32,505 bases of DNA from Ignavibacteria bacterium. Lineage in GTDB: Bacteria > Bacteroidota > Ignavibacteria > UBA10030 > SZUA-254. Where the stretch lies: assembly GCA_003235555.1 (NCBI GenBank), contig QJVY01000132.1:1-32505 (forward strand), given 5' to 3'. Below are positions 4,363 to 31,929 of the stretch, piece after piece. A program made the translations under genes and the position numbers. The notes under the pieces are model-generated. The model worked only from the letters and a program-made list of their open reading frames with translations, was not told the origin of the DNA and ran no database searches. Within the stretch, counting starts at the first letter, position 1. Every line of letters begins with the position of its first letter.

Positions 4363-5826
4363 ATGAACATTCTCGTCCTGGGTGGTACGGGGTACATCGG
4401 GGGCCGGCTGGTGCCACGGCTTCTCGCGGCGGGTCACTCCGTCCGGGTCATGGTGCGGAACCGGGCGAAGGCGAGCGCGCGGAACTGGAAGGGGGCGGAA
4501 ATCGTGCACGGCGACGTTCTGTATCGGCCGGACCTCGCCGCAGCATGCCGGGAGACGGACGTCATCTACTACCTTGTCCACTCCATGGTCGCGGACAGCG
4601 GCGATTTCGAGGAGGTGGACAGGGTCGCGGCCGAAAACGTCGCATCCGCCGCCGCAACTGCGGGTGTGAAGAGGATCATCTACCTCGGGGGGTTGGGAAA
4701 ACGCGATGCGGTGACATCCGCGCACCTGCGCAGCCGGCACGAGGTGGGGGACGTCCTCCGTTCCGGTGCCACCCCGGTCACGGAATTCCGTGCGGCGATC
4801 ATCATCGGGTCGGGGAGCGCATCGTTCGAAATGATCCACCACCTGGTGAACCGGCTCCCTGCGATGATCTGCCCGAGATGGGTGCTCGTCAGGACGCAAC
4901 CAATCTCGATCAAGGACGTCATCCGCTATCTCATCGAATGCCTGCACATCCCGGCGACGGCGGGACGCGTGATCGACATCGGCGGACCGGACGTCCTCAC
5001 CTACCGGGACATGATGCTGGTGACCGCACGGGCCCTCGGCCTGCGCAGGTACATCTTCACCGTCCCCGTCCTCACGCCGGGGCTGTCGTCGTACTGGGTG
5101 AACCTGATCTCCCCCATCCCCTTTTCCCTGGCCCGTGTCCTCATCGAAAGCCTTCGGCACGAGACCGTCTGCGAGGACGCGTCAGGGATGGAGTTGTTCG
5201 ACTTCCGACCGATGGATTTCCGCCTGGCGGTGGACCGCGCCCTGGAAAACGTCAGGTCCTTCAAAGTGGAAACGACCTGGGCTGAATCGGGGAATTACAC
5301 CCCGCAGGTCCTCGATTCACTCGACCCTTCACACCTCAGGGTTGACCGGAACGTCATCGAGACGACGGTGGGCCGGGAGGCGCTCTTCCGCATCATCTCT
5401 TCCATCGGGGGGAACCGTGGGTGGTACTACGCCGACTGGATGTGGCGGATCAGGGGGTTCATCGACAAGCAACTGGGGGGTGTCGGCCTGCGACGTGGGC
5501 GGAGACACCCCGTGCACGTGACTGTGGGCGAAGCCCTTGATTTCTGGAGGGTCGAAGCGCTGGTACCGGGGGAACGGCTGCTGCTCCGAGCCGAAATGAT
5601 CGTGTGGGGACACGCCTGGCTCGAATTCAGGCTGGAGGATGGCCCGGCGGGAACGAACAGACTCGTCCAGAACGCGCTCTACTATCCCCACGGCGTGGGG
5701 GGCCTCATCTACTGGTACTGCATGATCCCCTTTCACCTGATCGTCTTCCGCGGCCTGCTCCGGACCATCGTCGATCTCGCCCGCAGAGAGGAACGGATCT
5801 CGGGGCGAAACTTCAGACCGGTCTGA
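4363..5826 (+). CDS. atypical SDR NAD(P)-binding oxidoreductase fused to DUF2867 domain
   Basis: The 487-residue protein begins with a Rossmann fold: GGTGYIG at residues 7-13 sits right after the first strand, and RNRAKA near residue 27-32 fits a dinucleotide-ribose contact. The first 300 residues resemble the NmrA/complex-I NDUFA9-like atypical short-chain dehydrogenases; I see no canonical YxxxK site. From about residue 335 it resembles DUF2867 (GWYYADWMWRIRG and, near the C-terminus, YWYCMIPFHLIVFRG, a probable membrane-associated helix). This fusion is common in bacteria, but its substrate is not established. The gene has its own likely promoter, a short leader, and ends 17 bases from the convergent DUF2339 gene. 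Confidence 0.9.
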   Translation: MNILVLGGTGYIGGRLVPRLLAAGHSVRVMVRNRAKASARNWKGAEIVHGDVLYRPDLAAACRETDVIYYLVHSMVADSGDFEEVDRVAAENVASAAATAGVKRIIYLGGLGKRDAVTSAHLRSRHEVGDVLRSGATPVTEFRAAIIIGSGSASFEMIHHLVNRLPAMICPRWVLVRTQPISIKDVIRYLIECLHIPATAGRVIDIGGPDVLTYRDMMLVTARALGLRRYIFTVPVLTPGLSSYWVNLISPIPFSLARVLIESLRHETVCEDASGMELFDFRPMDFRLAVDRALENVRSFKVETTWAESGNYTPQVLDSLDPSHLRVDRNVIETTVGREALFRIISSIGGNRGWYYADWMWRIRGFIDKQLGGVGLRRGRRHPVHVTVGEALDFWRVEALVPGERLLLRAEMIVWGHAWLEFRLEDGPAGTNRLVQNALYYPHGVGGLIYWYCMIPFHLIVFRGLLRTIVDLARREERISGRNFRPV

Positions 5827-10118: not shown

Positions 10119-10788
10119 ACTTGTAGCCCGCCGTGTGAATGGTGACGAGGTGTTCCGGATGCGCCGGATCCCTCTCGATTTTTTTCCGGATCGTGAGGAT
10201 GTAGTTGTCCACCGTGCGTGTCGTCGGGAAGGTATCGTATCCCCAGACCTCGTCGAGCAGTGCGTCCCGGGTGACCACCTCCCCCTCCCTCTGGATGAAA
10301 TACTTCAGGACGTCCAGTTCCCGGGCGGACAATTTGACGGAGGCCGATCCCCGGATGACCTCGTGCTTCCGGAAATCGATGTGGACGTCGCCGAAGGAGT
10401 ATTCCTCCAGGTCACGTCGAATCTCCGTGGTCCGCCTCAGGCGGGCCCTCACCCGGGCCTTCAGTTCCCGCAGGCTGAAGGGTTTGGTCATGTAATCGTC
10501 GGCGCCCAGTTCGAGTCCGAGGACCCGGTCGACCTCCTCCTTCCTGCTCGTCAGAAAGAGAATCGGCACGTCGATACCCGCCCCCCGCAGTTCACGACAG
10601 ATTTCGAAACCGTCCTTTCCCGGGAGCATGACGTCGAGGATGACGAGGTCCGTGTTCTCTTTTTTCGCCAGTGCCAGTCCCTTCTCGCCATCCGCCGCCG
10701 TCAGAACCCGGTAGTGGTCTTCACCGAGGGTTTCCTCCAGTCCCTTCAGAATGGCCGGGTCGTCTTCTATGATGAGTATGTTTTTCAT
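10108..10788 (-). CDS. OmpR/PhoB-family response regulator
   Basis: The 226-residue protein has a receiver domain with acidic residues D9/D10, phosphoacceptor D52 in VILDVMLPG and the conserved lysine in YMTKPFS. A C-terminal winged helix follows (LSARELDVLKYFI, then VDNYILTIRKKIE and a HTAGYKF hairpin), typical of OmpR/PhoB transcription factors. ATG 10788 overlaps the stop of the upstream kinase (ATGA), so kinase and regulator are translated as a coupled pair. Regulated genes cannot be identified from this window. Confidence 0.95.
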   Translation of the reverse strand: MKNILIIEDDPAILKGLEETLGEDHYRVLTAADGEKGLALAKKENTDLVILDVMLPGKDGFEICRELRGAGIDVPILFLTSRKEEVDRVLGLELGADDYMTKPFSLRELKARVRARLRRTTEIRRDLEEYSFGDVHIDFRKHEVIRGSASVKLSARELDVLKYFIQREGEVVTRDALLDEVWGYDTFPTTRTVDNYILTIRKKIERDPAHPEHLVTIHTAGYKFTK

Positions 10789-13235
10789 GACCGCTCCTCC
10801 CTGTTCTCTGATGATGGCTCGACCGGCAGGGTCACTGTAAACGTGCTCCCCCGTCCAGGTTCGCTGTTGACGGTGATCGTCCCGCGGTGGGCGTCGACCA
10901 CATGTTTCACCACGGAGAGGCCGAGCCCGGCTCCTCCCTGTGACCCGGCCCGGGCATCCTTCGACCGGTGGAAGGGCCGGAAGATCTCCTCCACCTCCGC
11001 CGGGTCGATGCCGAAACCGTTGTCTCCCACCGACACAGCCACATTTCCGCCGTCAGCGCGTGTCGTGATGCTGATGCGTTTTGGCTCGCCCGAATATTTC
11101 AGGGCGTTACCCGCGAGGTTCAGGAGGACTTCCAGAATGGCGTCGGGATCGGCGGCCAGAATCAGGGGGTCATCGGCAAGGTCGTAGACCGTTTCACATT
11201 TCTTTATCCTGAACTGGTACTCCATGATCTCCCCCAGCCTGGTGACGATGTCGTTGAGGGATGTTTCCCGGAAATGGTATTCCTTGACACCGCGTTCGAT
11301 TTTCGCGAAATCGAGGACGTTGTTGATCAGCCGGGTCAGCCGTTCGCTTTCCCCCTCGATGATGGTCAGGTACCTGGAAACGGTTTCGTCGGGAATATCC
11401 TTCTTCGAACGCAGGAGCTGTGCGAACATGCTGATGGACGTCAGCGGAGTCTTCAGCTCGTGGGAAACACTCGACACGAAATACGATTTGAGCCTGTTGA
11501 GTTCCTCGAGACGTTCGGCCTCGGCTTTTTCCATCTCAAGGAACCGTTGAAGGTCGATTCGTTCCTTCTCTCCGGCGGCCTCGCCCGCGACAACGGTCAG
11601 CAGATCGACGTCTTCCTCGGTGAACATCAGCCCGGAGGTTTTCCTGCCGAGCACGAGGAACCCCAGGATCGCACCCCCCTTCGACTTCATCGGTATCGCA
11701 AGCGAGATGCCCCACCGACCGAACACCTCCGTGTCCGCGTTTTCGTGGGGGACGTTCTTCTCGATGTGCTCATCCACCGCGACCGGCAGTTCGAGGCCGG
11801 ATTTCAGTCGTTCCGCCTCGAAATGGACGCCGTGCGTGCTCAGGTGGGGGAAGTTTCTTTCCCCCAGCGTGCGGAGGCGGTTGCCCGGTTGGACGAGCGA
11901 AAACAGACCGATTCGTTCGACGGGCAGGAGCTTCCCGACTCCCCCGATGAGTTTTTCGGTCATCTCCTCCATGCCCGCTGATTTTTTCAGGTCCTCCAGG
12001 ACCTCTTTGAGCGATCCGCGGAAGTCGTAGCTGAGCCTGAAGAGCGAACGGTCCACGAGGCGTTCGGCACGTCTCCGGATCCAGTCGTACGTCACGACCG
12101 ATACGACCGCTGCCGCGGCCGAGAGCAGGATGGATCTCTCCACCGTCCATCCCGACACCAATCCGGCGGTCACGCCGAAGAGAAGCGCGTAGAGGACGAG
12201 CAGCGTCCCGATCACGATTGCGTGTACGGCGCTCCGGCTGATCAGCGTGGTAATGTCCACGAGCCTGTACTGCAGGATCGCGATAGCGAAAGAGACCGGG
12301 ATCGCGAGGAGAAAAACCTTGAACACGATCTCCGGGATAACCGGATCGGCGTTGAAGACCTGGGGCAGCGCCCAGAAGAGGGCGAACGGAAGGGTGCCCA
12401 CGGTCAAGCCGTAGAGGATCCATGCCGTTTTTTTCCTTTCGGAGAGGGTGCCCGCCCGGCGGTACGACCCCACCAGCAGGACCAGGCCGGTGAGGATCCC
12501 CGCGACCACGAATCCGTTCATCCAGACTGAGGCCGACGCCGCATCGCGAAAGCGGAGGATCGAATGTGTACCCGCCGCGTCCAGGTACAACCGCGCCTGC
12601 CATGCGGCCATCAGCAGGGCTCCGGGGTAGAGGACCCATGTGAGGACCCGCGGCCAGGGCATCCTTCGGACCGGGAAAACCGACGTAAAATGGAGAAAGA
12701 AAACGGAAATGGTGGTGTAGGCACCGAAGAAGAGGACACAGAGGGACATGCCGAGCCATGCCGGCTGCCGGACGTAGATCGTCTTGGTTCCGAGCAGTGC
12801 GGCTCCCAGGACGAGCGTCGCGCCCATAAATACCCGCGCGACACCACGGTCGGTGTGAAAGCGCATCACAATGACGCCCACACCGAGGATCATGATCGCG
12901 ATCACGGCGTCAAACGATATAGACCAGGGCCGATAGTACCGACCCAGTGTCATCACGACCGGGCCGGACCCGGGTGTCTCCCGGTCTATGGTGACCTCGT
13001 CCCCGATACGGTAGCCGCTCACGATAAATTCCAGTTCGTCACCCGTGCGCACCTCAACCCCGTCGAGGCGGAAGGGGTATGTGATGTCCGTGCCGGAACC
13101 CACCCCGGGGGCAAGACCCGGCTTTTCCAGGAGGTGTCCGACGGCAAAAATGGAGTAGAGCAGGAACACCATAACGGTGAAAACGAATGTTTTCCCGATG
13201 GGAACCCGGGCAGGATGGAGAGTCGCGATTCTCAT
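10785..13235 (-). CDS. multi-pass sensor histidine kinase with PDZ-like and GAF-like regions
   Basis: I take the start as ATG 13235: it is preceded by GGGAG and begins MRIATLHPARV, just before the first membrane span. A longer frame to 13439 exists but reads through the promoter and looks non-coding. The 816-residue product has one span, then an extracytoplasmic stretch whose GVEVRTGDELEFIVSGYRIGD looks like a PDZ-type domain, then about eight hydrophobic segments. A GAF-like region (about 470-560) follows, then HisKA with H592 in VSSVSHELKTPL and an ATPase domain with GDNGFGIDP and GGAGLGLSVVK. It is the cognate kinase of the overlapping OmpR-type regulator. Membrane-embedded sensing of a lipid or small hydrophobic signal is plausible but inferred. 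Confidence 0.92.
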   Translation of the reverse strand: MRIATLHPARVPIGKTFVFTVMVFLLYSIFAVGHLLEKPGLAPGVGSGTDITYPFRLDGVEVRTGDELEFIVSGYRIGDEVTIDRETPGSGPVVMTLGRYYRPWSISFDAVIAIMILGVGVIVMRFHTDRGVARVFMGATLVLGAALLGTKTIYVRQPAWLGMSLCVLFFGAYTTISVFFLHFTSVFPVRRMPWPRVLTWVLYPGALLMAAWQARLYLDAAGTHSILRFRDAASASVWMNGFVVAGILTGLVLLVGSYRRAGTLSERKKTAWILYGLTVGTLPFALFWALPQVFNADPVIPEIVFKVFLLAIPVSFAIAILQYRLVDITTLISRSAVHAIVIGTLLVLYALLFGVTAGLVSGWTVERSILLSAAAAVVSVVTYDWIRRRAERLVDRSLFRLSYDFRGSLKEVLEDLKKSAGMEEMTEKLIGGVGKLLPVERIGLFSLVQPGNRLRTLGERNFPHLSTHGVHFEAERLKSGLELPVAVDEHIEKNVPHENADTEVFGRWGISLAIPMKSKGGAILGFLVLGRKTSGLMFTEEDVDLLTVVAGEAAGEKERIDLQRFLEMEKAEAERLEELNRLKSYFVSSVSHELKTPLTSISMFAQLLRSKKDIPDETVSRYLTIIEGESERLTRLINNVLDFAKIERGVKEYHFRETSLNDIVTRLGEIMEYQFRIKKCETVYDLADDPLILAADPDAILEVLLNLAGNALKYSGEPKRISITTRADGGNVAVSVGDNGFGIDPAEVEEIFRPFHRSKDARAGSQGGAGLGLSVVKHVVDAHRGTITVNSEPGRGSTFTVTLPVEPSSENREERS

Positions 13236-13263
13236 CTGAGGGTGTCTCCCGACAGAACATTGG

Positions 13264-13292
13264 ATGGTAATGAAATGAGACTGTACATTCAA
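13264..13292 (-). promoter_or_regulatory. promoter of the kinase/OmpR-regulator operon
   Basis: Minus strand TTGAAT (13292-13287), 17 bases, TACCAT (13269-13264). The predicted start is about 20 bases before ATG 13235, which independently supports the shorter kinase start. Confidence 0.5.
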
Positions 13293-13407
13293 GTCACATA
13301 CGCGCGGACGACCGGGAGTCTGACCGCCCCGCCGCTCCCCGTACACGCAGGATTGCTCTTTTGATGCGATATTCGTATATTGTGGAGTTATCCTCACTCC
13401 ACCATCA

Positions 13408-13436
13408 TTCCTCCGCGTTCTTCCCGACGGTATAAT
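13408..13436 (+). promoter_or_regulatory. promoter of the thioredoxin-fold gene
   Basis: TTCCTC (13408-13413), 17 bases, a perfect TATAAT (13431-13436). The predicted start is about 23 bases before ATG 13466, leaving room for the GGAGG ribosome binding site. Confidence 0.45.
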
Positions 13437-13465
13437 CATTAACGGTTCTCATGACGGAGGTTCCG

Positions 13466-14629
13466 ATGAAACGATTCACCTTCCTGGTACTCATCACCTT
13501 CTTTTCCATCCCCGCGCTCTCCGGCGAAATAGCCTTCATCAAAAACGACTGGCAGAAGGCCCGCGAGATGGCCGCCGTGCAGGACAAGATGCTCCTGGTG
13601 GATTTCTACACCGACTGGTGCAAGTGGTGCCGCGTGATGGATACAACGACATTCCGGGATCCCGCGGTTGTCGCATACGTGAACGAACATTTCATCCCGT
13701 TGTCGATCGACGCCGAGAGGGATTTCGGAATCACCGTGGCGATGAAATACCGCGTGAACGCCTACCCCACCTACGGATACTTCACACCGGACGGAAGACT
13801 CGTACTCAAATCGCTCGGATATCAGCCCGCCGATGAGTATATCGACGTACTGCGGAACGCCGTCACCCGCAGCGACTCCGGTCTGGTCTACGAGGGTGTC
13901 ACGCCGGAGACAGACCTCGAGTACCCGGAATTCTTCAGGCTCGCGTCGGGGACGAGGAAGGCGAGGAAAAACCCCGAACAGGGTATCGTTGACGCATGGC
14001 TCGCCGGTCAGGAGGACCTTTTCGCGGAGGTTCCCTTCTCGGTGATCTGCCGGTTTTCAACACCGGAGACGATATCCGACTTCGTGATCGGAAACAGTGA
14101 AAAGTACGAAAAGCTCTATGGAACCGATGACGTGGAGATGAAAATTTCCTCCATCATCTCCGACAGGCTCCGCTCCGCCATCAGGGAAAACGATGCGAAA
14201 ATGTTCGAAGGGGTGCTGAACCTGAGCGATACATATGAGAAGGGCGACCGGGATGCGAGGCACCAACGCTACCGAATGAGGTTTTACAGCGGTACGGGGG
14301 ACTGGAAAAAGTACGCCGAGATGGTGTCTGGCGCCATCGACGCCGGCACGATGAGTGACGGAGCAATCAATTCTGCGGCCTGGACCATATACGAAAATTG
14401 TGAAGACGCGGCAATCGTGAAACAGGCGGTCGTATGGATGGCGAAGATCATCACCGACGCATCACCCTATGCGTATCTCGACACCTACGCCGCGGTGCTG
14501 TTCAAAGGCGGGGAGAGAGAGAAAGCCGAAACGTATGCCCTGAAGGCGATCGAAAAGGGAAGATCGGAAGAGGAAGATGTCGCGTCGACGGAGGAACTGC
14601 TGACAAAGATCCGCGGCCAGATCCAGTAA
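13466..14629 (+). CDS. secreted thioredoxin-fold protein (CKWC) with helical C-terminal domain
   Basis: Start ATG 13466 is preceded by GGAGG with a 5-base spacer; an ATG at 13451 lies just upstream of that ribosome binding site. A signal peptide (residues 1-20, ending ALSG) precedes a thioredoxin fold with active site W51-C52-K-W-C55 in DFYTDWCKWCRVM and the cis-proline loop NAYPTYGYF. This is the DUF255/thioredoxin-7 style used in periplasmic disulfide reduction. Residues about 150-387 have no recognised motif but look helical and repeat-like (TPR-type spacing), perhaps for partner binding. It could be a periplasmic thiol-disulfide reductase. It is transcribed divergently from the kinase operon. 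Confidence 0.9.
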   Translation: MKRFTFLVLITFFSIPALSGEIAFIKNDWQKAREMAAVQDKMLLVDFYTDWCKWCRVMDTTTFRDPAVVAYVNEHFIPLSIDAERDFGITVAMKYRVNAYPTYGYFTPDGRLVLKSLGYQPADEYIDVLRNAVTRSDSGLVYEGVTPETDLEYPEFFRLASGTRKARKNPEQGIVDAWLAGQEDLFAEVPFSVICRFSTPETISDFVIGNSEKYEKLYGTDDVEMKISSIISDRLRSAIRENDAKMFEGVLNLSDTYEKGDRDARHQRYRMRFYSGTGDWKKYAEMVSGAIDAGTMSDGAINSAAWTIYENCEDAAIVKQAVVWMAKIITDASPYAYLDTYAAVLFKGGEREKAETYALKAIEKGRSEEEDVASTEELLTKIRGQIQ

Positions 14630-23582: not shown

Positions 23583-26500
23583 CTATTTCAGCAGTACCAT
23601 TTTCCCCGTCCGGATGAACGTCTTCCCGCTCCCCTCGATGCTCCGGGCGTCGATCCGGTAGAGGTAGACCCCGGACGCCAGGTGCGCGGCATCGAACTCG
23701 AAGTCGTACTCGCCGACATCGAGTTCTTCATTGTCCGCGAGGACCGCCACCCGCTGTCCGAGCATGTTGAAGACCGACAGCGTCACCTGCGATTCCTCGG
23801 GGATTTCGAAGGAGATCGTCGTCGCCGGGTTGAAGGGGTTCGGATAGTTCTGGTACAACACGTATTCCTCGGGCACTTCCTCGAAGGGCGAACCCACCGG
23901 CGTGATGAGAAACGGCACGACCGTCGGATTGGGCTTCAGGTAGGCCACCTCTCCCAGTTCCCTCGTGCCCTCCGCCACCAGCTCCGACGCGAAGGAGATG
24001 GTATCCATCGGTCCCTCGAATGCCTCGTTGATCTTCCGAACCGTCGAGTCCAGGTTCAGGAAAACGGCCGGGGGCGCAAAATTGTGATAGCCGGGTTCAT
24101 ACGACCCCATCATCAGGGAGTCTCCGAGTGCTGAAATGTCCCTGATCATCATTCCGTTCAGCGGGTTGGCGGATTCATCGTCATAGATCAGCTCCCCGAA
24201 ACCGACCGGGGTCTTCCCCATCGCGCTGGCGACGATGCCCATTTTCAGCGTGACGAGGTTCGCAAGGAGCCTGTTGTTCTGCTTCGTCGGGAGGATTTTC
24301 TTCTGTCTCCGGGTGATCGCCCGGCCGTTCACGTAATAGTCCAGCCCCCGCGGGGTCCCCGTGTGCTGGATATTCCTGTAGTTCAAGGTCTTGAAGACGT
24401 ACTTGTACGTGGGGGCGAGCAGCCAGCCGTAGGATCTGGAGCTGTCGGAACGGTCCTTCCCGATCAGGAGTCCGCGGTCGGCCTCGAACCCTCCCTGGGC
24501 GAACACCTCGGAGAGGATGTTGAGCCTGTTCGGCATCGGCAGCAGCAGAGCATTCCGCTCGGCGATCGATCCGGGCGCGCCGATGGGCGATCCGGGGATG
24601 TCCGACAGCAGGAACCGGTGCCAGGATATTGCCTGGTATCTGCCCTTGGTTCCGAACCCGTACACCCGTATGGTGTCCGTAAAGGAAAGTGGGGGAGAAA
24701 AAATGAAGGCCCACCTGTTCGATCTCGTGTTGAGCGGGACGGGCGTCGATGGCGGGATGGTTCCGAACGGCCTGGTGACGTCGATGGGTGACCTCAGATA
24801 GACGATCAGCCGGTCAACATACGCATACGGATTCAGGATATACACCTGGAAATCGACGCCGGTTGGTTTCCGTTTTACGATCCTTCCGAGCCTCCCCCGT
24901 TCACCGGTTTCAACCGCGACGCTCTCCGGCATGAAGGAGCGGTACATCGCGGCCAGGACCGGGATCCTCACGAACACCGCGGTGATGCTCGTATTCGCGG
25001 TCATCGGGAACACCAGGGGGTTCGAGGACCCGCCTGCATCTCCGCTCCAATGCGAAAAGAGCCACGTGCTGTCCGCAGGGGTCGCCGTGAGCGTCACTCC
25101 CACGCCGTAGAGATATGTGGCCTGAACCGGGACCGTCAGGACGCTCCCCTGTCCCGAGGTCGATACGGTGAGCGTATACTCTGATTGCTCAAAATAGGCT
25201 TCGATCGTGTGGTTTCCCGTGACGTTCAGGAATGTATATGACGCCGTACTCCCGACAGAGACGCTGTCGACCGTCACGTCACTCACGAAATACCCCGGGT
25301 CGGGCGTGATCGTGAACGCCAGCGAATCCCCGTAATCCACCGGGGAGACGCCGGAAGGAGAAATCGTCCCGTTCGGACCCGCCACCGACGTGATGGTGAA
25401 CATCTGAACGCCGAGGCCATACACCCACGCCGCCCCCGTGCCGCCGTCGTCCCCGCTCCCTCCCACGATTGAAGTGTTGCCGTCGCCGGCCGTCATCACC
25501 GAGGCGCCCTGTCCCGCCGGACCGGCCGATCCGGATCCGGTGAGTTTGCCGCCCTCCTGGTTCCAGGCCGTGCCGCTCCGCGTAAACACCCAGATCGCAC
25601 CGTTGCCGCCGTCGTCCTCCTTTCCCCCGATGACCGCCTTGTTCCCGTCGGCCGAGAGGGAGACTGAAATTCCCTGCTGGGCCGCCCCGAGGGCACCGGT
25701 ACCGACCAGTTTGCTCCCCTGCTGCGACCAGATGCCGGCCGTGCGCGTGAACACCCAGGCCGCGCCGAGGTTGGTGTCGTCGGCATTGCCCCCGATGAGG
25801 GCCGTATTGCCGTCGGCCGAGAGCGAGACCGACTGTCCCATGCGCGCATTTCCCGCCGCGTCAGACCCGAAGAGCTTACTCCCCTGTTGCGACCAGACCC
25901 CCGCGGTCCTGGTGAAGACCCACGCGGCGCCGAGGTAACCCTTGTCGGTATATCCGCCGACGATGGCCGTGTTTCCATCCGACGACAACGAAACCGAACG
26001 GCCCTGCCCGCCTAAATTCACCGCCCCCGTTCCCACGAGCTTCGAACCCTGCTGGCTCCACGTCGAACCGCTCCGGGTGAAGACCCACACCGCACCGATT
26101 CCCCCGTCATCGAGGAACCCGCCGAGGATGACCGTGTTGCCGTCTCCGGAGACCGCAACGGCGTACCCCTGCCGCGAGGTCCCCACGGCACCGGTCCCCG
26201 TGAGCTTGGGTCCCTGCTGCGTCCAGACGCCCGAGGTGCGGACGAAGATCCACGCAGCACCCACGCCCGTGTTATCCTCGAAGCCACCGACGACGGCCGT
26301 GTTGCCGTCGGCCGAGAGCGAAACCGACTGTCCCTGTGCCGCGGCGCCCGCTGCGCCCGTCCCCACGAGTTTGCCTCCCTGCTGCGACCAGACCTCGTTG
26401 CACCGCGTATACATCCATGCGGCTCCGGTTCCGCCGTTGTCCGCGGGACCTCCGACGATGGCGGTGCTTCCATCCGCGGAAATCGCCACCGAAGTCCCCT

Positions 26501-27353
26501 GCGAGGCAACCCCGACGGACCCCGTCCCGACGATTTTCCCCCCCTGGGGAACGAACTGACCGACCACCCGCGCGAAAACCGCAGTGATGGTTTTATTCCC
26601 GTTCATGGAGATCGTCAGGGGGTTGGCGGAACCGGATGTATCGCACTCCCAGTGGGAGAAATACCAGTTCGCGTCCGCGGGTGCCGCCGTCAACTGGACG
26701 TTCACCCCCGGTTGGTAGGACGCCTGGTCGGGATTTTTCATCACCGTGCCGCCGCCCACCACAGAAATATCGAGGGTATATTCGGGTGCGAACGAGGCCT
26801 CGATCGTGTGGTCGGATGTGACTGTGGTGAAGGAGTAGTTCCCGACCGAACCGACGGAAACGGTGTCGACGAGGACGTCACTGATGAAATACCCCGGATC
26901 GGGCGTGATCGTGTAGTCGACGGAATTTCCGTACCCGACAATCGAGTCGCCGGCCGGTGTGATGGAACCGTTCGGACCTGCCGAAGCACTGACGGTGAAT
27001 GTCTGGAGACCGAAAAAGGCCTCGATGGAATGATCGGCCAGGACGGTGAAAAAGGTGTAGGAACCGACCGCCCCGACAGAGACGGTGTCGACGTGCACAT
27101 CGGCTACGTAGTACCCGACATTGGGAGTTATCGTGAATGCCTGGTCTGCACCGTCGGCCACCAGGACGGCCCCGCCCGGCGCGATGCCTCCGCCGGCACC
27201 TGCGGTGGCCGTGATCGTATGGTCGACAAGGACGGATTCGACGCCCCGCGCGTCGGTCACCTGTCGGGCGGGTTGAGCCCCGGCGGTGAGTGAAAACAGC
27301 AGGACGAAGAGTCCGGGGGCTGTGAATCTGCTGAAGGCTCTTCGCGCGTTCAT
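23583..27353 (-). CDS. large T9SS-exported protein: bacterial-repeat domains and seven-repeat propeller
   Basis: The 1256-residue protein has a signal peptide (1-26, ending AGAQ). Three InlB/'bacterial repeat'-like modules follow (about 45-262; signatures DPGYFISDV and SHTIEA-like strands, and YFSHWECD). Next come seven 55-residue repeats (about 268-652) with the pattern SQQGSKLVGTG...SVSLSADGNTA...GAAWVFTR, resembling FG-GAP or kelch-like blades and expected to close a propeller. Two more bacterial-repeat modules follow (652-800), then about 350 residues with no recognised motif. The last part is a T9SS type A sorting domain from about 1170 (NYPNPFNPATTI). GAGGAG lies 7 bases before the ATG. 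It is likely a surface adhesin or sugar-binding protein; the role is not shown by sequence. Confidence 0.9.
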   Translation of the reverse strand: MNARRAFSRFTAPGLFVLLFSLTAGAQPARQVTDARGVESVLVDHTITATAGAGGGIAPGGAVLVADGADQAFTITPNVGYYVADVHVDTVSVGAVGSYTFFTVLADHSIEAFFGLQTFTVSASAGPNGSITPAGDSIVGYGNSVDYTITPDPGYFISDVLVDTVSVGSVGNYSFTTVTSDHTIEASFAPEYTLDISVVGGGTVMKNPDQASYQPGVNVQLTAAPADANWYFSHWECDTSGSANPLTISMNGNKTITAVFARVVGQFVPQGGKIVGTGSVGVASQGTSVAISADGSTAIVGGPADNGGTGAAWMYTRCNEVWSQQGGKLVGTGAAGAAAQGQSVSLSADGNTAVVGGFEDNTGVGAAWIFVRTSGVWTQQGPKLTGTGAVGTSRQGYAVAVSGDGNTVILGGFLDDGGIGAVWVFTRSGSTWSQQGSKLVGTGAVNLGGQGRSVSLSSDGNTAIVGGYTDKGYLGAAWVFTRTAGVWSQQGSKLFGSDAAGNARMGQSVSLSADGNTALIGGNADDTNLGAAWVFTRTAGIWSQQGSKLVGTGALGAAQQGISVSLSADGNKAVIGGKEDDGGNGAIWVFTRSGTAWNQEGGKLTGSGSAGPAGQGASVMTAGDGNTSIVGGSGDDGGTGAAWVYGLGVQMFTITSVAGPNGTISPSGVSPVDYGDSLAFTITPDPGYFVSDVTVDSVSVGSTASYTFLNVTGNHTIEAYFEQSEYTLTVSTSGQGSVLTVPVQATYLYGVGVTLTATPADSTWLFSHWSGDAGGSSNPLVFPMTANTSITAVFVRIPVLAAMYRSFMPESVAVETGERGRLGRIVKRKPTGVDFQVYILNPYAYVDRLIVYLRSPIDVTRPFGTIPPSTPVPLNTRSNRWAFIFSPPLSFTDTIRVYGFGTKGRYQAISWHRFLLSDIPGSPIGAPGSIAERNALLLPMPNRLNILSEVFAQGGFEADRGLLIGKDRSDSSRSYGWLLAPTYKYVFKTLNYRNIQHTGTPRGLDYYVNGRAITRRQKKILPTKQNNRLLANLVTLKMGIVASAMGKTPVGFGELIYDDESANPLNGMMIRDISALGDSLMMGSYEPGYHNFAPPAVFLNLDSTVRKINEAFEGPMDTISFASELVAEGTRELGEVAYLKPNPTVVPFLITPVGSPFEEVPEEYVLYQNYPNPFNPATTISFEIPEESQVTLSVFNMLGQRVAVLADNEELDVGEYDFEFDAAHLASGVYLYRIDARSIEGSGKTFIRTGKMVLLK
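25398..26552 (-). repeat. seven tandem coding repeats of exactly 165 bp
   Basis: The marker lysine of the (G/S/P)K(L/I) motif recurs at residues 273, 328, 383, 438, 493, 548 and 603, a period of 55 codons with no insertions or deletions. Units are similar but not identical at DNA level. Confidence 0.9.
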
Positions 27354-27591: not shown

Positions 27592-29253
27592 TTACACGGT
27601 GTGCAGATAGCGCATAACGGAGTAGATCGCGGCGGATCCCTCCCCGACGGCGGCGGCGACACGCCTGTTCGCGCCTGAGCGGACGTCCCCGGCCGCGAAG
27701 ACACCAGGCACGTTGGTTTCGAACATGTAGGGATCGCGGTCCAGGTTCCACCCCCGTATACCGCGAACGGTCCTCGGGATGTCCGGGCCCGTCAGGATGA
27801 ACCCCTTCTCGTCGAGCTCCAGCGTACCGTCGACCATGCCCGAATGGGGCGCGGTACCGATAAAGATGAACATCGCCGCCGCGTCGAACCGGGTTTCCTC
27901 CCCGCTGCCCAACGTTCTGACAACCACACTCTCCAGCCTGCCGCTTCCCGTCACCGAGGAGACCTCCACCCCGTTCACAACCTCGATATTCGCCGTTGCG
28001 TCGATCCGGTCGACGAGGTACCGCGACATCGCCGGGCTCAACGACGGTGCCCTCACGAGCATCCTCACCAGGCTGGCATACCTGCTGAAAAACAGGGCGC
28101 CCTGGCCCGCCGAGTTGGCGCCCCCGACGATGCAGATCTCCTGGCCGCGGTAGGTCACCCCCTCCGTCATCGCGGCGCCGTAGTACACGCCGATGCCCAG
28201 GAGCGGGTCGATGCCCGGCACCTCGAGTTTCCGTACGCTCATGCCCGTCGCGAACACCGCCGCGTAACAGGAGATCTCGGAACCGTTTGCCAGCCTGATA
28301 ATCCTGTACGGATCCTCGCGACGGATCCCGACCACTTCGCTGGCCGTCAGGATCTCCCCCCCGAAACGCCTGACCTGCGTCGTGGCGCGTTGGGCGAGGT
28401 CCGCGCCGCTGATTCCGGTGGGGAACCCGAGGTAATTTTCAATCCTCGAGCTCGTGCCCGCCTGGCCTCCCGGCGCATTTTGTTCGAGCAGCACCGTTTT
28501 CAACCCCTCCGAGGCTCCGTAAAGGGCGTTGGCAAGGCCGGCGGGACCGCCCCCGATTACCACGAGGTCGTAAAACGGAAGCTTCGCGCGCGTCTGCAAC
28601 CCCACGCTGTCCGCGAGCTCGGGGATCGGCGGGTTCACGAGGCGGGACCCGTCCGGAAGGAAGATCACCGGTAGACTTCCGATTCCGGATGGCAGGGCCG
28701 AAAGGGTCTCTCGCATCGGCGCGTCCTGGTCGATATCGATCCACTGGTAAGGGACCTGATTCCGTGAAAGAAACTCCTTGGCCGCGTAGCTCTCGGGGGA
28801 CCAACGCGTGCCCGCGACCCGGATGCCGTCGTAGGGAAGCCTCACCCGGGCCGACCAGTCCATCAGGAGGTCGTCCAGCACGGGGTAGAGTTTATCCTCA
28901 GGCGGATCCCAGGGTTTCATCAGGTAATGGTCGAGGCCGATCTCGTTGATGCTCGTGATCGCCGCCTCCGTGTCGGCGTATGCGGTAAGAAGGACTTTCT
29001 TGGAATCAGGATGGATCTTCTGCACTTCGGTGAGGACCTCCGTTCCGGTCATCACGGGCATGCGCTGATCGACGATGAACATCGCAATCGGCGTGCCCCG
29101 TTCCTTCAGGCGCCGCGCCGTGTTGACGGCGTCGTCCCCGGTGGACACCTTCAGCACACGGTACCGCCCTCCATAGTGGGCGCGGAGATCGCGATCGATC
29201 GCACCGAGTACTTCGGGATCGTCATCGACGGTCATGATTACTGGTTTTGCCAC
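27592..29253 (-). CDS. response regulator fused to glutaredoxin-like and thioredoxin-reductase-like domains
   Basis: The 553-residue protein starts at GTG 29253 behind a perfect AAGGAG with a 7-base spacer. Domain order: receiver (about 3-125) with phosphoacceptor D62 (FIVDQRMP) and K113; a glutaredoxin-like segment (about 140-222) in which the CxxC position reads WSPE; then an FAD/NADPH two-domain flavoprotein like thioredoxin reductase (about 227-553) with GGGPAGL (234-240), GGQAGTSSRIENYLGFP, GGANSAG (377-383) and FAAGDV. Where thioredoxin reductase has its redox CxxC, this protein reads YYGAAMT (358-364). It therefore cannot do disulfide relay by the usual route and more likely senses or alters the flavin/NAD(P)H state as a phosphorylation-controlled module. 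It is the last gene of an operon with a cysteine hydrolase and a PAS kinase. This fusion is known from annotation, but its function is unclear. Confidence 0.94.
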   Translation of the reverse strand: MAKPVIMTVDDDPEVLGAIDRDLRAHYGGRYRVLKVSTGDDAVNTARRLKERGTPIAMFIVDQRMPVMTGTEVLTEVQKIHPDSKKVLLTAYADTEAAITSINEIGLDHYLMKPWDPPEDKLYPVLDDLLMDWSARVRLPYDGIRVAGTRWSPESYAAKEFLSRNQVPYQWIDIDQDAPMRETLSALPSGIGSLPVIFLPDGSRLVNPPIPELADSVGLQTRAKLPFYDLVVIGGGPAGLANALYGASEGLKTVLLEQNAPGGQAGTSSRIENYLGFPTGISGADLAQRATTQVRRFGGEILTASEVVGIRREDPYRIIRLANGSEISCYAAVFATGMSVRKLEVPGIDPLLGIGVYYGAAMTEGVTYRGQEICIVGGANSAGQGALFFSRYASLVRMLVRAPSLSPAMSRYLVDRIDATANIEVVNGVEVSSVTGSGRLESVVVRTLGSGEETRFDAAAMFIFIGTAPHSGMVDGTLELDEKGFILTGPDIPRTVRGIRGWNLDRDPYMFETNVPGVFAAGDVRSGANRRVAAAVGEGSAAIYSVMRYLHTV

Positions 29254-29323: not shown

Positions 29324-31003
29324 TCAGGGGGGCGTCGAGCCGGGATCGGTCAGCGGGAGCCATACCGTGAACCGGGTGCGGCCCGGCCGGGAATCGACTG
29401 AAATTCCCCCGCCGTGTTTTTCGGTGATGATGCTGTATGTCGTCGAAAGTCCCAGGCCTGTCCCCCGACCGGGCTCCTTCGTCGTGAAGAAGGGGTCGAA
29501 GATGCGCGACTGCACCGCCTCTGGTATACCGGGACCGGAATCCTCGATCTCCACCACTGCCCGGTGTTCTCCGAGTCTCGTCCTGATACGCAGCTCCCCT
29601 TTTCCGTTCATGGCATCGACCGCGTTGTCGATCAGGTTCGTCCAGGCCTGATTGAGCTCGGAGCCAAAAGCCTCCAGGGGGGGGACGTCCGGGCTGTACT
29701 CCCTGATGATCTTGACACCCTTGTTCAGCTTAAACCGCATAATCACGAGCGTTTCTTCGAGTCCGTCCTGGAGCCTGATTCTCTGCACCGGCGCCTGTCC
29801 GAGGTAGGAATAATGCTTGAGCGCCCCGACAATTTCAGAAATCCTCGCGGATCCCTTTCCGATGTCCGACAGGAGGATGTAGACCGGAAAGACCACCGCA
29901 GTCCATTCCAGGACGGATGACAGGGCATCACCCGGTATGATGCCGGCCATCCGGTCCAGGTCCGACGGCGAAATCTCGGTCGCGGCCAACGGGGATGCGA
30001 GGTTCCAGGGATCCGGGATGTCGTGCCCGCTCAGCCACTCCTCGATTTCCGCTTCGGCATCGGCCCGCGACAACGGATCAAGGGGGTCCAGCCTGACGGA
30101 TGATTTCCTCGCCCTTTCCTCGAGTTCGTCGATAAGATCTCGTGCAGCCGCGGAGAGGTTCACGGATGAAAGTTTGATGTGCGCCTTTTCCAGCCGGACG
30201 ATCGCGTCCCGGAGGTGCCCGGTGGTCCGGACCACGGCCGCCGCCGGATTGTTGAGTTCATGCGCCACGCCCGCGGCGAGCGTGCCCAGTGTCGCCATTT
30301 TCTCCGACTGGCGCAACGCCTTCTCGGTCCGCTTCTGGACTGTGACATCCGCGCCGAACACGAAAACGAAAGGCCCCCCCCCGTCCCGCCTGTGGGCGAA
30401 AATGAAATCCCTGCCGAGGACGCACGCCTCGACCGGCACGGGTTCCGGGGAGGCGAGAATCAGGCTCCACGTCCTGTCATCAAAATCCGGAAGGATATTT
30501 TTCCAGCACCGCCCCACGACGTCCTCGCCGAACAGCTGCCTGGCGGCCGCGTTTCCCATGATCACGTTGCCGCCGAGGTCCGTTCTGATCACAGGACCGG
30601 GGTTCATTTCGGGGAATCGGGCAAGCTCGGCGAGCAGGACCTTTTGTCTCGCCAGTTCCTCCTCCGCCCGTTTCCGTGTCGTGATGTCAGCACCGAACAC
30701 GTAGACGTCACCGCCGGTCGCCGGGAGGATGAACGTGAGGGAGACACACATGTTTCCAATTTCCACCTCACACTGAGTTGGACCCTCTCCGCTCCAGATC
30801 CTCCCCCATTCCTCCCTGCTTATGTCGGGACAGATGTCGACCCACGTTTTCCCGACCAGCCCCTCGTCGCCGAACATCGTCCGCGCCGCCCTGTTTGCCA
30901 GGACGATCGTTCCCTTCCGGTCGATGCGAAACACCGGACCCGGATTGATATCCGGGAGACTTGCCATCTCCCGGAGTTTCCGTTTACGGCCACCCAGGAT
31001 CAC
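29324..31003 (-). CDS. PAS-PAS sensor histidine kinase with insertion in the dimerisation domain
   Basis: The 559-residue soluble kinase has two PAS domains (about 14-112 and 128-225), each beginning with a NPGPV(F/I)R(I/T)D strand and followed by a short coiled coil. HisKA has phosphoacceptor H248 in GVAHELNNPAAAV. About 110 residues separate this helix from the second dimerisation helix (KGSARISEIVGALKHYSYLG), far more than usual. The ATPase domain has NLIDNAVDAM, EDSGPGIP, DPFFTTK and GTGLGLSTTYSII. GTG 31003 is used as start: AAGGA of the preceding gene's final codons lies 11 bases upstream. It follows the hydrolase gene by 8 bases and precedes the receiver-flavoprotein gene by 70, its probable phosphotransfer partner. 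Confidence 0.92.
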   Translation of the reverse strand: MILGGRKRKLREMASLPDINPGPVFRIDRKGTIVLANRAARTMFGDEGLVGKTWVDICPDISREEWGRIWSGEGPTQCEVEIGNMCVSLTFILPATGGDVYVFGADITTRKRAEEELARQKVLLAELARFPEMNPGPVIRTDLGGNVIMGNAAARQLFGEDVVGRCWKNILPDFDDRTWSLILASPEPVPVEACVLGRDFIFAHRRDGGGPFVFVFGADVTVQKRTEKALRQSEKMATLGTLAAGVAHELNNPAAAVVRTTGHLRDAIVRLEKAHIKLSSVNLSAAARDLIDELEERARKSSVRLDPLDPLSRADAEAEIEEWLSGHDIPDPWNLASPLAATEISPSDLDRMAGIIPGDALSSVLEWTAVVFPVYILLSDIGKGSARISEIVGALKHYSYLGQAPVQRIRLQDGLEETLVIMRFKLNKGVKIIREYSPDVPPLEAFGSELNQAWTNLIDNAVDAMNGKGELRIRTRLGEHRAVVEIEDSGPGIPEAVQSRIFDPFFTTKEPGRGTGLGLSTTYSIITEKHGGGISVDSRPGRTRFTVWLPLTDPGSTPP

Positions 31004-31011
31004 CGGGACGA

Positions 31012-31662
31012 TTATCCTTTCATGGCCCTGATGACTTCATCCGTCGTCATGACGGCGTTGGCGATGAATCCGAAGTTGACGAGTGCCGCCTGGTATCCGT
31101 CACCGAGCTCGGGGTGCCGGGCGCCCGCGGTGGCGTCCTTCACCACGGTGACCTCAAAACCCTGCTCGAGCAGTTCACGCATATGTGCCTCGACACAGAG
31201 GTTGGCGGACATCCCGGCGAGGATGATCCTGCTGATGTTCCTCTTGCGCAGCTGCAGTGCGAGGTCGTTGTTTTCCGGTCCGTAGACCTTGTGCGGGTTG
31301 ACGATCACGGTCTTTTGATCTTCGATGTACGGTTTGAACCGTTCCAGCCAGTCGGCCCCCGATCCGTCGAATCCATCGAGGGACAGGGCCCCGCGCCTGT
31401 CGAACATTTTGATCTGGTGCATCATCAGTTCGACCGTACCGCCGAACTTCCATCCGTGGTCTGTCGGGTAGTAGTAGTGCGGGGATATGAACACCTCGTA
31501 ACCTGATTTTTTGGCGGTTTCGAACAACCGCTCGATGTTCTCGACGGTTTTGTTCTCTTTGACACTGTCCCCCACAAGTCCCCAGGTGACCCCCTTTTCA
31601 CTGAGAAAATCGTTCTGCGGGTCGGTGACCAGCACTGCCGTATTTGTGTTGTTGATTTCCAT
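31012..31662 (-). CDS. isochorismatase-family cysteine hydrolase
   Basis: I set the start at ATG 31662, preceded by GGAGGG, rather than the longer frame to 31725. The 216-residue product has the isochorismatase-like triad: D14 in VTDPQNDFL, K125 in NPHKVYG and C156 in GMSANLCVEAH, with the cis-peptide region before the cysteine intact. Family members hydrolyse amides, esters or vinyl ethers of small molecules (isochorismate, nicotinamide, carbamates); the substrate cannot be told. No signal peptide is present. First in the operon hydrolase-kinase-receiver/flavoprotein. If it acted on nicotinamide-type compounds it would fit the NAD(P)H-binding partner, but that is a guess. Confidence 0.92.
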   Translation of the reverse strand: MEINNTNTAVLVTDPQNDFLSEKGVTWGLVGDSVKENKTVENIERLFETAKKSGYEVFISPHYYYPTDHGWKFGGTVELMMHQIKMFDRRGALSLDGFDGSGADWLERFKPYIEDQKTVIVNPHKVYGPENNDLALQLRKRNISRIILAGMSANLCVEAHMRELLEQGFEVTVVKDATAGARHPELGDGYQAALVNFGFIANAVMTTDEVIRAMKG

Positions 31663-31929
31663 GAAACCCTCCGTGATTGATTGACTGCATTGATTGATGT
31701 TCGTGTTCTGCGGTTGACGGATCACTCTGCGTGGAAATGCACCTTCTCCATCGGATATCTCCCGGTCTGGTTGATCAACGGACGAAGGAGGTGATGGTGG
31801 TGGGGGAGGCCGGCGACCCGGGAGGACCGGCGGGCATCACGGCCGGCCGGGGCGAACAGGGCATCCCGCCCAACTCGGTCCCGGCCAGAGACGTTCTGAG
31901 GTATTGGAGAATCATGAACCATGGTCTCA

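Follow-up and report, generated by a model that had tools for sequence, protein, structure and literature searches.

A receiver–glutaredoxin–thioredoxin reductase-like fusion lacking the redox cysteine pairs, and its associated histidine kinase, in an Ignavibacteria genome: a putative phosphorylation-gated flavoenzyme

The 32,505-nucleotide stretch of an Ignavibacteria bacterium contig analyzed here (hereafter the window) encodes a fusion of a receiver (REC), a glutaredoxin (Grx)-like domain and a thioredoxin reductase (TrxR)-like module in which both of the usual redox cysteine pairs are replaced. The gene is a real and ordinary member of a widespread family that is probably misnamed in the databases. 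The reading that we favor, with a probability of roughly 0.55, is that of a dedicated two-component system whose output would be a flavin-dependent NAD(P)H oxidoreductase, gated by phosphorylation and acting on an acceptor other than a thiol. Directly legible in the sequences are the domains, the phosphoacceptor site, the loss of both cysteine pairs, the FAD loop, a retained acid and the association with a kinase (Table 1).

Table 1. Features of the fusion gene and its neighbors in the window
Feature	Coordinates	Strand	Description or support
REC + Grx-like + TrxR-like fusion ORF	27592-29253	-	553 aa, GTG start
REC, residues 5-117	28900..29238	-	Pfam Response_reg, E 5.4e-13
Glutaredoxin/mycoredoxin-like domain, residues 143-214	28609..28824	-	NCBIfam TIGR02200, 1.6e-8
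Grx CxxC position, here S151-P-E-S154	28789..28800	-	family alignment
TrxR-like FAD/pyridine-nucleotide module, residues 226-550	27601..28575	-	Pfam Pyr_redox_2 (227-538), 2.3e-31
FAD-binding loop, GGQAGTSSRIENYLGFP	28420..28470	-	near invariant in family alignment
TrxR CxxC position, here G358-A-A-M-T362	28165..28179	-	family alignment
Glu363, in place of the catalytic Asp after the TrxR CxxC	28162..28164	-	E 81/82, D 1/82
Family-specific insert, ~20 aa, with W501, R505, P507	27721..27795	-	alignments
Partner histidine kinase, PAS-PAS + extended DHp + HATPase_c	29324..31003	-	559 aa; 70 bp upstream, same strand
Extended DHp of partner kinase, residues 236-450	29654..30298	-	H-box His248; N-box Asn ~209 residues on
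Isochorismatase-family hydrolase	31012..31725	-	upstream of kinase; Pfam Isochorismatase 2.2e-28

An AAGGAG-type ribosome-binding site precedes the open reading frame, and the homologues align with the same start methionine; residues are numbered here from the alanine that follows the GTG-encoded methionine. The first-pass annotation had described the gene as a receiver/glutaredoxin/thioredoxin-reductase fusion with the redox CxxC motifs gone, and the open frame, the Pfam and NCBIfam matches and the alignment all bear this out. A sequencing error or a decayed gene can be dismissed given that the frame and the motifs agree with homologues across many phyla. In the receiver, the acidic pair D9/D10, the phosphoacceptor D61, T89 and K112 are intact, and the last three are conserved in 81, 81 and 82, respectively, of the 82 rows of the family alignment. 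The Grx-like domain is recognized by the NCBIfam mycoredoxin model over residues 143-214 and by Pfam Glutaredoxin over residues 152-198 (E 2.2e-6); its thioredoxin fold is assigned from these matches, from the invariant cis-proline P194 (82/82 rows) and from the helix-strand order of the whole-protein model. Searched against PDB sequences, the fusion protein matches TrxRs at E 2e-48, and its score with the TrxR model TIGR01292 (226.9) lies under the cut-off of that model (343.45). An AlphaFold2 model built from 42 sequences has a mean pLDDT of 85.5 and a pTM of 0.67, the FAD loop (about residues 259-279) being its least confident region, with a pLDDT of about 50. When this model was compared with the PDB using Foldseek, TrxRs ranked first (best E 4.1e-31; TM-score by target 0.90 for 5mh4) and AhpF was also retrieved; a profile search of PDB sequences likewise points to TrxR. 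The model and the fold search thus agree on a predicted TrxR fold for the TrxR-like module.

To delineate the family, bacterial and archaeal genomes were scanned and 80 loci retained; the resulting alignment has 82 rows, with the window entered twice and its own paralogue once, and covers about ten phyla, among them Cyanobacteriota, Chloroflexota, Gemmatimonadota, Acidobacteriota, Bacteroidota, Ignavibacteriota and Actinomycetota. Aligned with the W-C-x-x-C motif of mycoredoxins and glutaredoxins, the window protein reads W150-S151-P-E-S154, that is, a Ser/Ser pair, with S151 found in 78 of the 82 rows and S154 in 71 (five rows have a cysteine at position 154). At the second site, the Y-C-A-T-C-D of TrxR corresponds to Y357-G358-A-A-M-T362-E363, with one residue inserted, and positions 358-362 are occupied by G, A, A, M and T in 81, 80, 80, 74 and 74 rows, respectively. 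The first-pass annotation had given the two sites as WSPE and AAMT, which is right in substance but about one residue off in each case, the tryptophan preceding the former pair and a glycine opening the latter site. Accordingly, neither the redox-active CxxC of thioredoxin-disulfide reductase (EC 1.8.1.9) nor the active-site cysteines of glutaredoxin or mycoredoxin are present, and the earlier claim that electrons cannot pass through the usual cysteine pairs stands, both pairs being replaced; the canonical TrxR of the same genome (G000 contig C16) retains CATC. The window protein has only two cysteines, the widely separated C328 and C373, and the 82 rows share no other pair of cysteines. An additional CxxC at positions 425-428 is confined to a cyanobacterial subset, so an alternative pair can be rejected as a family trait. 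Judging from this alignment, the loss of both pairs is family-wide, as is also seen in every inspected member of the wider clade of modules, and chance replacement is unlikely given that the 82 rows from about ten phyla have identical replacements. The alignment that had been proposed as a check on the generality of the loss thus gives a positive answer, and the conserved alternative pair that had been named as counter-evidence is not found in it.

The first-pass annotation also held that the FAD and NAD(P)H motifs are kept. The FAD motif and the Rossmann glycine motif GGANSA are indeed retained, but the HRRxxxR box, with which TrxRs hold the NADPH 2'-phosphate, is missing in all 82 rows, so that NADPH use should not be assumed and even reduction of the protein by NADPH is uncertain. 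In the family-specific insert, which is missing from canonical TrxR and from cysteine-active Grx-TrxR fusions, W501, R505 and P507 are conserved in 80, 81 and 81 of the 82 rows. The window protein thus displays all the family hallmarks, namely the domain order, the FAD loop, the signature YYGAA[ML][TS]E and the W-x3-R-x-P insert. Together, the near-invariant FAD loop, the retained acid Glu363 and the insert with W501, R505 and P507 suggest an active site under selection. Of the options raised in the first-pass annotation (flavin sensor, oxidase, output by binding), these features would favor a functional enzyme rather than a protein that serves only as a binding scaffold; against an active enzyme it has to be counted that such strict conservation could equally serve ligand sensing.

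The module also occurs in other architectures. A tblastn search of plasmids revealed proteins in which the Grx-like plus TrxR-like module (43-45% identity) follows a cNMP-binding domain, as well as a shorter module protein encoded beside a gene for a zf-UBP zinc-finger protein. On Rhodococcus and Streptomyces plasmids (L094/L097), the cNMP-type module shares a stress island with dnaJ, cbpM, clpB, trxA and a zf-UBP gene. Two distant Grx-TrxR fusions (about 31% identity) are found in the phylum of the window genome; these double-glutaredoxin-TrxR proteins (L167, 3184-4641; L171, 3397-4809), with WCPDC twice and CATC, have all three CxxC motifs intact, lack the insert and can be regarded as a thiol-active equivalent. 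A tree was built from 51 modules; a branch with 100/100 support divides the cysteine-less modules from these fusions, and the REC and cNMP forms are clustered, which neither shows nor excludes single origins. The window protein groups with rows from Spirochaetota, Gemmatimonadota and Acidobacteriota, and only one (G018, 63%) of the 39 relatives from the family and order of the window genome has the fusion; this distribution fits a patchy, possibly transferred gene, and errors in MAG binning are possible as well. The genome itself encodes a second fusion (L166, G000 contig C204, 2549-4258; 40% identity) on a short contig that carries no kinase. This paralogue has drifted, with valine in place of the receiver Thr89 and IVPSD at the CxxC site, which implies that the chemistry is dispensable in some copies and counts against the enzymatic reading.

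The kinase gene immediately upstream encodes a protein with an unusually long DHp region: the spacing between the H-box histidine and the N-box asparagine is 205-210 residues in 51 kinases, and in typical kinases this distance is about half of the ~209 residues seen here. A kinase of this extended-DHp class is encoded within three genes of the fusion at 57 of the 77 loci, the genes often overlapping or nearly abutting. Of 44 such kinases, 34 carry a cNMP-binding domain and about six carry PAS domains. Co-occurrence was assessed in 297 genomes of the phylum, with DHp residues 236-450 (E <= 1e-10) and module residues 142-552 (E <= 1e-50) as queries. The extended DHp was found in 41 genomes, every one of which is among the 47 that encode the module, and the 250 genomes lacking the module all lack the kinase as well (Fisher p = 3e-44, a value overstated by relatedness, many genomes coming from one family; by genus, the kinase is present in 26 of 141 and the module in 32 of 141). 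By the listed coordinates, the two genes are adjacent in most of the 41 genomes, with clear exceptions in G165, where they are on separate contigs, and G301, where about 30 kb separate them. The prediction, made in advance, that modules of genomes without the kinase carry no REC held for all six such genomes (G079, G136, G154, G170, G186, G213), of which two have cNMP-fused modules, two bare modules and two cysteine-active Grx-TrxR proteins. Conversely, REC is present on all 30 inspected module proteins from kinase genomes and also on that of G301, which was inspected separately. Gene order and genome-wide co-occurrence thus point to a dedicated kinase, cognate to the fusion response regulator. 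The same genome has a second extended-DHp kinase (L165, G000 contig C104, 6241-7713), the N-terminus of which resembles a cNMP-binding domain, with no Pfam match.

The isochorismatase-family gene is perhaps co-transcribed with the kinase; as a component of the system it was rejected, there being no such recurring cluster among the neighbors, which were clustered but not all named. Directly downstream of the fusion, on the same strand, lies a gene (23583-27353, minus) the product of which is large and secreted; it has FG-GAP repeats and domains resembling InlB B-repeats, together with a sorting tail for type IX secretion. Elsewhere in the window, an NmrA-type NAD(P)-binding domain is joined to DUF2867 (4363-5823, plus), and a GAF histidine kinase (minus) is divergent from a thioredoxin-like (DsbH/Thioredoxin_7) protein (plus; both within 10788-14626).

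Under the favored scenario, the extended-DHp kinase would sense a signal, by its PAS domains in the present case and more commonly, at other loci, by a cNMP-binding domain, and would phosphorylate REC at Asp61. REC, via the cysteine-less Grx-like domain, would then gate the TrxR-like flavoenzyme, in which NADH or NADPH is predicted to donate hydride to FAD, and the reduced FAD would hand it on to an acceptor other than a disulfide, such as O2, a quinone, a small electrophile or some protein, with Glu363 as the putative proton donor. The phosphorylation gating proposed in the first-pass annotation is plausible, as REC retains its phosphoacceptor residues and is accompanied by a dedicated kinase. 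The suggestion that the output is not by DNA is probably correct as well, since a Pfam search of the fusion protein found no DNA-binding domain. The cNMP-driven one-component form of the same module fits an output module with exchangeable inputs, and the standalone and cNMP-driven forms together speak for an output intrinsic to the module. A point against this scenario is that we found no cysteine-less relative whose structure has been solved or whose activity is known.

The chief rival, less probable but to be taken seriously, is a pseudo-reductase scaffold in which FAD and NAD(P)H binding merely reports the redox or nicotinamide state and the signal is passed on by partner binding, which corresponds to the output by binding suggested in the first-pass annotation. 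The joint loss of both cysteine pairs with retention of the fold, the exchangeability of the signaling domains and the missing HRRxxxR box are all consistent with such a scaffold, but the near-invariant acid at the proton-donor position, the conserved family-specific insert, the existence of standalone modules without any signaling domain and the lack of a constant downstream partner among the neighbor genes argue against it. An unlikely alternative is reverse flow, whereby the redox state of the flavin sets phosphorylation or dephosphorylation of REC and the protein is a redox input feeding back on the kinase; the tight pairing of one kinase class with the module and the lack of a DNA-binding or other output domain would fit, but the one-component and standalone forms, which lack kinase and REC, show that the module does not require a kinase to function. 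Very improbable is a thiol reductase that employs non-canonical or partner cysteines, for instance those of a nearby zf-UBP protein. Genes for such proteins are neighbors at 7 of 81 loci and on several actinobacterial plasmids, some beside trxA, clpB or dnaJ, and the cyanobacterial CxxC at 425-428 could be cited in the same vein; against this, the family has no conserved pair, the two cysteines of the window protein are far apart, and no zf-UBP gene was found in its own genome (a draft assembly), so that the zinc finger can be rejected as an obligate partner. An equally remote proposal makes the fusion protein a TrxR-like ferredoxin/flavodoxin reductase (FNR), a group also devoid of CxxC (PMC10294844). 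The fusion protein is nearer in sequence to TrxR (PDB E 2e-48) than to FNR (about 3e-13). FNRs carry a C-terminal FAD-stacking extension, but in the alignment the fusion protein stops where TrxR stops, and membership in this group is unsupported.

Returning to the phosphorylation-gated oxidoreductase, if it is real, bacteria of many phyla would control a non-thiol flavoenzyme through phosphorylation or through direct action of a cNMP-type ligand, and two-component signaling would have a post-translational redox output, served by a kinase class never found without the module in the genomes sampled. More tentatively, and with a good deal of doubt, one may envisage a widespread, misnamed redox signaling class that performs phosphorylation- or ligand-gated non-thiol flavin chemistry and has a kinase class solely for its control; this chemistry may be, for example, signal-controlled turnover of H2O2 or quinones. 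The points worth following are the exclusivity of the kinase and the family-wide loss of cysteines. Annotation pipelines label close relatives thioredoxin-disulfide reductase despite the absence of the catalytic cysteines throughout, and this name probably misstates what the family does.

Enzymes linked to REC domains are well known in general. A search of the open-access literature found no paper characterizing a cysteine-less REC-Grx-TrxR protein, which is weak evidence of absence. In an archaeal two-component survey, REC-TrxR fusions are recorded as a 'Mycobacterium-like combination' (PMC5847659); by description, these are alike in combining REC with a TrxR-type module, and they are known from genome surveys, the passages concerned being silent on cysteines, a Grx-like domain and the class of kinase. 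Low-Mr thioredoxin reductase (TrxB) shares the fold, the FAD motifs and about 30% identity with the fusion protein, which differs in having GAAMT for CxxC, no HRRxxxR, the W-x3-R-x-P insert and the N-terminal REC and Grx-like domains. The TrxR-like ferredoxin/flavodoxin reductases are more distant in sequence. The (Grx)2-TrxR fusions L167 and L171, as well as AhpF, are alike in having one or more thioredoxin-fold domains N-terminal to the TrxR core, but in L167 and L171 every CxxC is retained and there is no insert. The RefSeq 'Cyclic nucleotide-binding domain-containing thioredoxin-disulfide reductase' resembles the family in its identity over the module (43-45%) and in the lack of CxxC pairs, and differs in that a cNMP-binding domain replaces REC and a kinase is not needed.
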